Source: Oscillospiraceae bacterium (GTDB taxonomy: Bacteria; Bacillota; Clostridia; Oscillospirales; CAG-272). Taken from it: 32,573 bases of DNA. This document shows positions 22,227 through 23,525 of this stretch, in pieces. The first letter of the stretch is position 1. Every line of letters begins with the position of its first letter. Below the pieces are notes generated by a model. It was not told where the DNA came from. It worked only from the letters and a program-made list of their open reading frames with translations, and did no database searches. The stretch covers positions 20,375-52,947 of the forward strand of contig SVRR01000011.1 in NCBI GenBank assembly GCA_015064745.1. The letters are read 5' to 3'. A program made the position numbers and the translations under genes.

Positions 22227-22796
22227 TTATTGATGCTCTCTCGCTTCGCGGGCGAGGCTTCGCTCGTAAAGACGGCGCAAAGCAGGGGTGTTCGCGCGCA
22301 AAACGGCGGTTGGCATGAGGTTTAGGACGAGGTTGACAAGCGCGACAAAAACACCGATCCCTCGTTTTGGCAGAAGCAAAAGAAGAAAGCCGCCGACAGC
22401 CCCCGCGATATGCCCTGCGACACCGTAGTTCGATTCGAGCAAAAACCGTCCGAGATAGGCAGAGCTTTTTGAATCGCGCAGACGGTCCTTATGAAAGCCG
22501 GTGAAGCACCCAAGCTCGGGAACGAACCGTTTCCATTTTTGAAGTCCGAGGCGGCGGTATAACCGCGCTTCCCGTTCGCCGACCGCAAAGATGCGCCGCA
22601 TCGGCGCAAACCATTTTTGTGGCAGACGGCGGATGAGAAAGGCAAAAACGCCGTCAATGGCGATGACTGTGGCAACCTCGAAAAGCGTTGTAAGCAAAAG
22701 CAAAAGAAAAGCCGCAAGTGTGTAGATTCCTTCGAAAAGGAAGCAACCGAGCGTGATAAGCAACGCCGACAGGGAGATGATGATAATGTATGCCAT
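22227..22796 (-). CDS. CrtO-like membrane acyltransferase family protein
   Basis: The start at 22796 (MAYIIIISLS) follows ACAGGAGGGAAAGC. The 189-residue protein has about four hydrophobic segments. The segment YRRLGLQKWKRFVPELG, then HKDRLRDSKSSAYLGRF, and the C-terminal NLMPTAVLRANTPALRRLYE resemble staphylococcal CrtO (glycosyl-diaponeurosporenoate acyltransferase). No carotenoid genes are nearby, so the acceptor here is probably another lipid. It has its own consensus promoter. Confidence 0.78.
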   Translation of the reverse strand: MAYIIIISLSALLITLGCFLFEGIYTLAAFLLLLLTTLFEVATVIAIDGVFAFLIRRLPQKWFAPMRRIFAVGEREARLYRRLGLQKWKRFVPELGCFTGFHKDRLRDSKSSAYLGRFLLESNYGVAGHIAGAVGGFLLLLLPKRGIGVFVALVNLVLNLMPTAVLRANTPALRRLYERSLAREAREHQ

Positions 22797-22852: not shown

Positions 22853-22887
22853 GCAAGAGAGGGAGAAAATCAGCATGAAGTCAAATG

Positions 22888-22918
22888 AAAAAGCTCGTTC
22901 CGAAGAACGAGCTTTTTT
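22888..22918. terminator. Strong hairpin with T-run, no obvious gene to terminate
   Basis: AAAAAGCTCGTTC and GAACGAGCTTTTTT pair around CGAA. It could stop transcripts from either side. It lies just left of the hairpin comb, so it may be part of that element or its own transcript end. Confidence 0.7.
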
Positions 22919-22923
22919 GAATA

Positions 22924-23161
22924 GGGAGGCTCTCCTCCCAATCACGCCGTAGGCGTGTATATCATCCGCAACCTGTTGCGGTATATCATCAATGCGGAGC
23001 ATTGCATATCATCAACACAAAGTGTTGTATCTCATCAAGCCACAGAAGGATGCACGCCGTCGCGTGATGATATACAGCCCGAAGGGCTGGTGATATGCAC
23101 CGCGCTTAGCGCGGCGTATGATATACCAAGCCTGCGGCTTGGATAAATCGCGGAGCGATTT
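22924..23161. repeat. Comb of short 3-nt-loop hairpins with mirrored 8-nt spacers
   Basis: At least nine small perfect hairpins follow each other, mostly 6-7 bp stems with 3-nt loops: CACGCC-GTA-GGCGTG (22943-22957), CCGCAAC-CT-GTTGCGG (22966-22981), CAATGC-GGA-GCATTG (22990-23004), CAACAC-AAA-GTGTTG (23013-23027), CACGC-CGTC-GCGTG (23053-23066), CAGCCC-GAA-GGGCTG (23075-23089), CCGCGC-TTA-GCGCGG (23100-23114), CCAAGCC-TGC-GGCTTGG (23126-23142), AAATCGC-GGA-GCGATTT (23145-23161). Spacers are TATATCAT or close variants on the left, and ATGATATA or variants on the right. No gene is present. A 9-base direct repeat AGGGAGGCT flanks it (22923-22931 and 23163-23171). Confidence 0.92.
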
Positions 23162-23171
23162 TAGGGAGGCT

Positions 23172-23396
23172 CGCTACGCGAAGTTGCTCACGCCCTGCGC
23201 CTGGCGAGCAAGCTCCCTGATCTTCGGGCGGAGCAACCGAAATACTTCCTGCAACATAGTCGAAATGCGCGCAAATCGCAGATTTGCTTCATTTCTCCTT
23301 GTTTCAGTTACATCCTCCAAAAAACAATTATCAATTGTTTTTTCTTCGGTGACCCGTGCTTTGCGGCAAAGCCGCAAGCACTGTGGTGAGAATCCT
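23172..23396. other. Gene-poor tail of the hairpin region
   Basis: This stretch continues the hairpin style more loosely: a TCGC-TAC-GCGA hairpin at its start, GCAAATC-GCA-GATTTGC (about 23272-23288), AACAATT-ATC-AATTGTT (about 23325-23341) and GCTTTGCGGC-AAA-GCCGCAAGC (about 23359-23380). A minus-strand frame of about 48 codons (ending RLLRPKIRELARQAQGVSNF) exists but lacks a convincing start and coding features. I see no supported gene. Confidence 0.6.
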
Positions 23397-23465
23397 CTAT
23401 TCCCCAGCCACACGAATGAAAAAAGCCACCCTTTTGGGTGGCTCATTCGTGTGGCTGGGGAATAG
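23397..23465. repeat. Perfect 23-nt inverted repeat around the tRNA-Gln terminator
   Basis: Positions 23397-23419 are the exact reverse complement of 23443-23465. The right arm is the tRNA-Gln 3' end (acceptor strand, discriminator, CCA) plus 9 bases downstream. The left arm is an inverted copy that continues to about 23390 with one inserted base (GAATCCTCTATT against GAATCCCTATT in the tRNA). The tRNA terminator hairpin sits between the arms. Confidence 0.92.
23419..23443 (-). terminator. Terminator of tRNA-Gln
   Basis: On the minus strand AGCCACCC-AAAA-GGGTGGCT is followed by TTTTTC, 9 bases after the CCA end. Confidence 0.88.
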
Positions 23466-23525
23466 GGATTCGAACCCCAACAAACAGAGTCAGAGTCTGT
23501 CGTGCTACCTTTACACAATTCCCCA
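23452..23525 (-). tRNA. tRNA-Gln (anticodon CUG)
   Basis: The minus strand reads acceptor TGGGGAA, D-arm with AAAGGTAGCA, anticodon stem ACAGA/TCTGT around the loop CTCTGAC (anticodon CTG), T-arm with GGTTCGAATCC, acceptor TTCCCCA, discriminator G and an encoded CCA. The 74-nt length and the U1 start are typical for tRNA-Gln. It has its own promoter and terminator and stands alone. Confidence 0.95.

Follow-up and report, generated by a model that had tools for sequence, protein, structure and literature searches.

Structure of the comb locus

The window, i.e. the whole analysed stretch of 32,573 nt from an Oscillospiraceae bacterium, contains an array of small hairpins, here called a comb, between a CrtO-like acyltransferase gene and a tRNA-Gln gene (Table 1). 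Read along the minus strand, tRNA-Gln comes first, and its 3′ end is repeated in inverted form around a terminator-like hairpin (23397-23465). Some 220 nt further on follow the first of the two 11-nt direct repeats which flank the comb, a substitute hairpin, the comb itself, the second 11-nt repeat, another terminator-like hairpin and the acyltransferase gene. Inverted copies resembling the palindrome at 23397-23465 (minus strand) also trail the tmRNA in the loci L190 and L200. The comb is drawn in the orientation ending with ..GGATAAA, and the nearby tRNA gene lies on the minus strand.

Table 1 Features of the comb locus (positions within the window)
Feature	Position	Strand	Remarks
CrtO-like acyltransferase gene	22227-22796		
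Terminator-like hairpin	22888-22917	not assigned	far side of the comb
11-nt direct repeat TAGGGAGGCTC, left copy	22922-22932	+	
Comb element proper	~22940-23147	+	ends set by comparing copies, including near-identical copies with unrelated flanks
Hairpin 1, CACGCC gta GGCGTG	22943-22957	+	
Left spacer word TATATCAT	22958-22965	+	
Hairpin 2	22966-22981	+	
Left spacer word TATATCAT	22982-22989	+	
Hairpin 3	22990-23004	+	
Left spacer word CATATCAT	23005-23012	+	
Hairpin 4	23013-23027	+	
Left spacer word TATCTCAT	23028-23035	+	pairs with a right word in the consensus
Segment P	23036-23045	+	9/10 complementary to 23132-23141 (last hairpin); conserved and covarying in the comb family
Apex hairpin, CACGC cgtc GCGTG	23053-23066	+	
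Right spacer word ATGATATA	23067-23074	+	reverse complement of the left word
Hairpin 6	23075-23089	+	
Right spacer word GTGATATG	23090-23097	+	two changes
Hairpin 7	23100-23114	+	
Right spacer word ATGATATA	23118-23125	+	
Terminal hairpin, CCAAGCC tgc GGCTTGG, then ATAAA	23126-23142	+	3′ part complementary to P
Hairpin AAATCGC gga GCGATTT	23145-23161	+	outside the comb; takes the position that a terminator-like hairpin has in other copies
11-nt direct repeat TAGGGAGGCTC, right copy	23162-23172	+	
Palindrome formed by the tRNA-Gln 3′ end and its inverted copy, with a terminator-like hairpin between them	23397-23465		
tRNA-Gln (CTG)	23452-23525	−	304 nt from the comb, 3′ end towards it

The hairpins are joined by an 8-nt word which turns to its reverse complement halfway along the comb: TATATCAT or a variant with one change occurs four times on the left side, and the right side has two copies of ATGATATA and one of GTGATATG. 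The word coordinates confirm the sequence-only reading, which had described such a mirrored spacer within an array of perfect hairpins at 22924-23161. Eight non-overlapping perfect hairpins (stem of at least 5, loop of 3-4 nt) were counted in 22941-23147, compared with 0-4 in 2000 dinucleotide shuffles, and one more (23145-23161) lies outside the comb. The array is therefore there, but the edges of its proposed span have to be moved, since the left end overlaps an 11-nt repeat and the last hairpin occupies the position of a terminator-like hairpin. The comb score of the window copy was 5 and did not exceed 1 in 150 shuffles. Among 108 window tiles of 300 nt, only the one holding the comb scored above 1, and a 360-nt tiling gave one further tile (10080) with a score of 2. 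The fold z-score of 22880-23200 was −6.0 as RNA and −8.6 as DNA.

The earlier reading had set the element apart from CRISPR and from any RNA class that it could name, and both statements held. A CRISPR array was rejected because the constant word turns its orientation, the intervening segments are perfect hairpins and there is no constant repeat with unique spacers. The only Rfam match at the gathering score in the window was a tRNA.

Distribution of the comb family

A sequence search of the source genome G000 (1.7 Mb in 41 contigs, about 90% complete) found comb relatives at C9:48096, C41:651, C37:5057, C8:5577 and C9:4639. A covariance model (R1, alignment A1) was built from 17 comb cores, and the covariance search proposed in the sequence-only reading matched 32 of the 59 related genomes at E ≤ 1e-3, other families of the order included; both strands of one comb are counted in the hit numbers of this model. 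An exact pattern for the conserved comb end was present in at least 119 stretches among the genome contigs. The matches listed (80 records) were metagenome-assembled genomes labelled Clostridia, Clostridiales, Oscillospiraceae, Ruminococcaceae, Ruminococcus or Eubacterium, with one Bacillales, and many of their titles carry RGIG, naming the ruminant hindgut.

Near-identical combs were found at different tRNAs with unrelated flanks (L230/L231, 99.1% over 215 nt; L142/L144, 98.0% over 199 nt). The orientation of the word switches exactly once in 62 of 68 combs, and the number of hairpin arms differs between copies. The array L015 (G000:C14:40650-40853), in which the words change and all spacers run in one direction, is a degenerate or one-sided comb.

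S23 proteins as the probable partner family

The ORFs located right after combs (277 ORFs) were mostly mutually unrelated. The largest recurrent family among them, 11 ORFs in 10 loci, was a four-helix-bundle protein, of which the one ORF scanned proved to be PF05635 (23S_rRNA_IVP or S23), related to PDB 2rld. PF05635 was present in 47 of the 59 related genomes, and searching these relatives revealed S23 genes preceded by combs with words other than that of the window. We sampled the 70 best-scoring ORFs by family score (one contig-edge ORF was left out) and dropped 8 with less than 200 nt upstream. In about 410 nt upstream of the remaining 62 genes, a comb score of at least 3 was reached in 42 and of at least 2 in 48, and 20 genes had a score below 3. 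In the test of 360 nt upstream, no shuffle out of 120 scored 2 or more, and the 360-nt control windows reached 3 in one case out of 160, which was a true comb at the tmRNA of G000, and at least 2 in seven. Downstream flanks of S23 genes scored 3 in 3 of 30 cases, and an S23 gene lay within 450 nt of 11 of the 78 window-family combs. A phage origin was rejected: the exact comb-end pattern occurred in one viral contig, and S23 at 44-49% identity in two phage records.

The spacer word tracks the clade of S23 (Mantel r 0.68, a value reached by none of 2000 permutations; n = 57, with comb-selected loci among them). The word was common to 91-100% of S23 pairs at 70% identity or more, to 38% at 60-70% and to about 7% at 40-60%. 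The correlation below 60% S23 identity was 0.09, and the word-clade agreement may therefore reflect co-inheritance. In S23 pairs of 62-92% identity, the agreement was 0.55 in hairpins (0.46 in randomised hairpins) and 0.81 in spacers, the latter figure coming from shorter segments, in which short words match more easily, and from a comparison randomised for hairpins only. The word TATATCAT accompanies S23 proteins of the NYLLIYSEQL type, and TATGTAAT those of the NLLLEYSEEL type. L367 and L395 are exceptions, as they encode S23 of another type downstream of the window's word TATATCAT, which somewhat weakens the explanation preferred below.

The similarity of PF05635 to Avd, a protein of diversity-generating retroelements (available text of PMC10053308), brings up a retroelement moved in trans by a reverse transcriptase through an Avd-like S23 protein. 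Weaker PF05635 hits indeed adjoin a reverse transcriptase in G015 (C18:5972-7526) and G035 (C44:45937-47422). RVT_1 was detected, however, in 13 of the 59 relatives and was not detected in G000 (about 90% complete). Of the 18 genomes in which the model had 10 hits or more, 15 lacked RVT_1, among them G002, G004, G005, G024 and G027, which are 93-96% complete. Retro-mobility was rejected on this last count, and we regard such an element as very improbable.

S23 genes beyond the order

PF05635 was found in 45 of 249 genomes of the phylum. Outside the order, none of 29 S23 loci reached a comb score of 3. At least five copies of a tandem word were present in 10 of 27 loci and in 12 of 135 shuffles; because the separation by copy number was weak, inverted arms were tested. 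Inverted complementary arms around the S23 ORF were found in 15 of 26 loci, above the 99th percentile of mismatched pairs (the near-duplicate L420 was left out of the 26). S23 ORFs lie inside LSU rRNA at three loci outside the order and inside the RNase P RNA gene in the near-identical L417 and L420 (1229-2003, minus strand). Inverted words flank the S23 ORF of L417, and the S23 insertion of these two loci reads as an intervening sequence in RNase P RNA. Together, the arms and the location of S23 in LSU rRNA and RNase P RNA indicate that inverted short arms around S23 seem to be widespread, and the comb looks like an elaboration of this order.

Placement at tRNA and tmRNA genes

In rumen-type Clostridia, members of the comb family often stand at the end of a tRNA gene. 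The placement was studied in 80 stretches chosen from the listed model hits, together with the window and the loci of its own genome. From 176 two-strand hits, 100 elements were drawn, and 12 without the ATAA end and 4 at contig ends were set aside. A terminator-like hairpin directly precedes the comb in 76 of the 84 copies scored. Forty-five of these 76 abut a tRNA or tmRNA with its CCA, 16 have a CCA and no recognised tRNA (a loose test, by which a few may be due to chance) and 15 have no CCA. Among the eight copies without a preceding terminator-like hairpin, one lies beside a tRNA. The tRNAs next to combs are of many kinds.

Displaced tRNA ends were sought in 23 rows with the nearest upstream tRNA 60-1300 nt away. 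A duplicated tRNA 3′ end of 17-23 nt with at most one mismatch was present in 10 rows, i.e. at nine loci, L256 having been added by hand. The duplicates start in the T-loop or at its edge and lie 30-43 nt before the comb in eight of the nine loci; the best copy lies 265 nt from the comb in L113 and 777 nt in the second row of L105. In the other 13 rows, including the window, the match to a tRNA 3′ end was 7 nt at most. Of tmRNA loci from 30 genomes (29 readable), a comb stood at the CCA in two and followed a displaced 3′ end in a third; the stretches shown for the remaining readable loci contained other sequence and no comb, five of them having less than 150 nt to read. Such a placement is what repeated insertion at the ends of tRNA genes would leave, with no insertion event seen among genomes that represent one species each and include several copies at contig ends. 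The dispersed near-identical copies at different tRNAs and the duplicated 3′ ends agree with the non-autonomous mobile element which the first reading had listed among its candidates.

Other sequences were noticed at these sites. A different common sequence (~GACGAACACTTACTTC..GCGGCGGCTTCGCCG) follows the tmRNA CCA in L174, L176, L181, L184, L185 and L193, in L181 after a displaced copy of the CCA, and represents another insertion type at the same tmRNA site. A motif containing CACCTTTT precedes combs in L098, L104, L118, L130, L134, L149, L150, L155, L169 and L269, where it occupies the place of the tRNA 3′ end of other copies and is repeated in several. A sequence resembling a tRNA 3′ half (~GGGTTCGAATTCATACGC..AAAATATCTTTTTTG) was found before or after combs in several genomes (L101, L111, L231 and L157).

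The comb could also be an integron-like cassette site, i.e. a folded site of a tyrosine recombinase, with the single genes between combs as cassettes gathered behind the tRNA. In L098, L105, L123, L134, L139, L149, L150 and L155, two combs separated by 0.6-1.7 kb enclose a gene that runs in the direction of the tRNA, and these tandem loci make the alternative credible; candidate cargo between combs includes NUDIX, HAD and TIM-barrel genes. Tyrosine integrases typically duplicate the tRNA 3′ end with a break near the T-loop, which counts in its favour, as does the presence of PF00589 in 57 of the 59 genomes. Nevertheless, among the matches listed and compared by eye, PF00589 was seen in the neighbourhood of a comb once (G028:C35, at 2.4 kb) and of an S23 gene once (G005:C9:65026-66499, at about 0.5 kb), G015 (71% complete) had 36 model hits and no PF00589, and the gene between the two combs of L104 runs the opposite way. 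Taken together, we consider a cassette site unlikely.

Pairing and covariation

In the 17-row alignment, 95.3% of cells paired, 63 cells were double-changed (19.4 in shuffles) and the shuffles were exceeded on all five covariation measures. An alignment of 94 copies, which leans towards the model because it was fitted to it, contained 511 double-changed cells compared with 142 (sd 10) in shuffles; two of its five measures were not above shuffles (double-change pairs, 20 vs 19.0; further pair types, 64 vs 61.7). The spacers change together between copies (TATATCATC/GATGATATA, TATGTAATC/GATTACATA): inverted complementary arms are present, and the left words pair and covary with the right words. 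This bears out the single multi-branched fold and the selection on pairing that had been read from the window; homologous copies exist, and their stem changes are compensated. That reading did not include the position at tRNA genes, the S23 proteins, the relation of the word to their clades or the long-range pairing described next.

A second pairing, of the mid-comb segment P with the 3′ part of the last hairpin, is kept as well. Among the 94 copies it is perfect over 9 nt in 65 and has at most one mismatch in 83, in 17 versions. With the arms of other copies, P paired perfectly in 66 of 5148 combinations and with one mismatch at most in 496, and in shuffles the figures were 0 and 10 of 470. 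In the 17 rows, 97.6% of its cells paired (93.5% in shuffles). When P is paired, the terminal hairpin cannot form, and together with the spacer stem a pseudoknot would result; the P pairing may therefore act as a switch. As P has one mismatch in the window and no S23 gene adjoins the comb there, the window copy is read as an older, decayed one. It is also without the usual terminator-like hairpin and without a clear displaced tRNA end (best match 7 nt); the right 11-nt repeat is possibly a decayed fragment of the tRNA-Gln 3′ end, a relationship to which the tRNA-end match test lends no support.

Covariation, including a pairing which would make a pseudoknot or a switch, is also what a structured RNA would display. 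The comb would then be transcribed, e.g. converging on the tRNA with a common bidirectional terminator, and S23 would be its RNA-binding partner. The fold z-score as RNA, the terminator-like hairpins adjoining 76 of the 84 copies and the resemblance of S23 to Avd (in the accessible part of PMC10053308) are consistent with this. On the other hand, G-U pairs are rare in the hairpins despite common double changes, the number of arms varies, and Rfam gave tRNA alone in the window at the gathering score. A hand count in the 94-copy table gave 33 G-U cells for the spacer stem, of which 26 fall on one outer pair, and 18 for the four hairpin helices together. The rarity in hairpins makes us lean towards DNA, or both strands, as the object of selection, and a structured RNA appears distinctly unlikely.

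Since combs are short, intergenic, multi-copy and palindromic and adjoin terminator-like hairpins, they might be ordinary REP/BIME-like or terminator-type palindromic repeats with no partner. Against this stand the combs with other words which precede S23 genes far above controls, the conserved P pairing and the tRNA-end duplications, and such a repeat is a highly improbable identity for the comb. HUH/Y1 mobility of the REP/RAYT kind was rejected in turn: Y1 transposase was not found in G000 (about 90% complete) and was found in 19 of the 59 relatives; of the 18 genomes in which the model had 10 hits or more, 13 contained none.

Proposed nature of the comb

We somewhat favour the explanation that the comb is a solo, probably non-autonomous mobile element of an S23 class which targets tRNA 3′ ends. 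It starts from features observed directly, namely the architecture, the copy number, the tRNA-end placement, the duplicated 3′ ends, the covariation, the linkage to S23 and the word-clade agreement. Mobility is what we infer from the placement; binding, action in trans, the chemistry of insertion and DNA as the acting form are presumed. The comb would be an array of S23-cognate words that are direct in its first part, inverted in its second and separated by perfect hairpins, and its strand would fold into a single branched structure. S23, whose solved relative is a toroidal pentamer, may read the word, and the folded comb would be its putative binding array. The S23 protein of copies carrying the gene could act in trans on combs without it. 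The folded comb would then insert at the 3′ end of a tRNA or tmRNA gene, part of the tRNA 3′ end being duplicated. No recombinase dedicated to combs was found; since tyrosine recombinases occur in 57 of the 59 genomes, a host or borrowed one is a possible enzyme.

More tentatively, and with considerable doubt, S23 might be the part that reads a short private word in an undescribed class of minimal mobile DNA elements. Such elements would fold as hairpin combs and home to the 3′ ends of structured RNA genes with neither a transposase nor a reverse transcriptase nor a dedicated integrase belonging to them, and rRNA intervening sequences would be one branch of this class. As S23 comes here with a private, sequence-specific candidate partner array, its function can be put to a direct test through binding. 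Integration has a hot spot at tRNA gene ends. If combs move, they would make up a class of mobile elements that is aimed at tRNA ends, has no recognised enzyme and may be able to take adjacent genes along.

Comparison with known systems

Integron gene cassettes with attC are single genes between folded sites in the same direction. Comb loci also have single genes between folded sites in one direction, but the comb is an array of many hairpins starting at a tRNA. REP/BIME sequences with RAYT are dispersed palindromes with a partner gene family, which they have in common with combs; the partner of the comb is, however, S23 and not a Y1 transposase.

Avd of diversity-generating retroelements is a related four-helix protein, but according to the available text it requires a reverse transcriptase and template and variable repeats (PMC10053308), whereas the 15 of 18 comb-rich genomes mentioned above are without RVT_1. 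With their weaker PF05635 hits beside a reverse transcriptase, the loci G015:C18 and G035:C44 resemble the arrangement of diversity-generating retroelements. Genes of 23S_rRNA_IVP occur in cas loci; the accessible part of that study describes gene neighbours and a motif for this protein family outside rRNA and no comb, and the term tRNA is absent (PMC3936711). In CPR bacteria, 23S_rRNA_IVP ORFs lie in rRNA insertions at several sites. These share the S23 ORF with combs, and no comb or tRNA placement is described in the available text (PMC11270868), the main text of which does not contain the terms tRNA, RNase P or repeats.

S23 with hairpin combs or tRNA ends was not found in the titles and abstract beginnings searched, a coverage that excludes preprints and most subscription journals. 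Nor do the available parts of PMC4990558, PMC11270868, PMC10053308, PMC3936711 and PMC5524665 contain the comb architecture, its position at tRNA ends or the agreement between word and clade. The association of S23 with intervening sequences is already known, and those three features were not found in the literature searched.

The closest known systems are the intervening sequences which encode S23 (PF05635, 23S_rRNA_IVP), e.g. in the 23S rRNA of Coxiella and Leptospira; as far as the accessible text goes, S23 is described there as a protein whose function is not known and for which X. campestris has provided a homopentamer structure (PMC4990558). On that partial account, they resemble combs in the S23 gene family, the complementary borders forming a stem, the sporadic distribution and the placement in structured RNA genes, to which 45 of the 84 scored combs correspond by abutting a tRNA or tmRNA, the window copy lying 304 nt from tRNA-Gln. 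They differ in the site, which is a helix loop of 23S rRNA for intervening sequences and the 3′ end of tRNA or tmRNA for combs, and in that comb word arrays are split by perfect hairpins and most scored combs have no S23 gene. S23 is best known from rRNA intervening sequences, and combs offer a way to test the function of the family.
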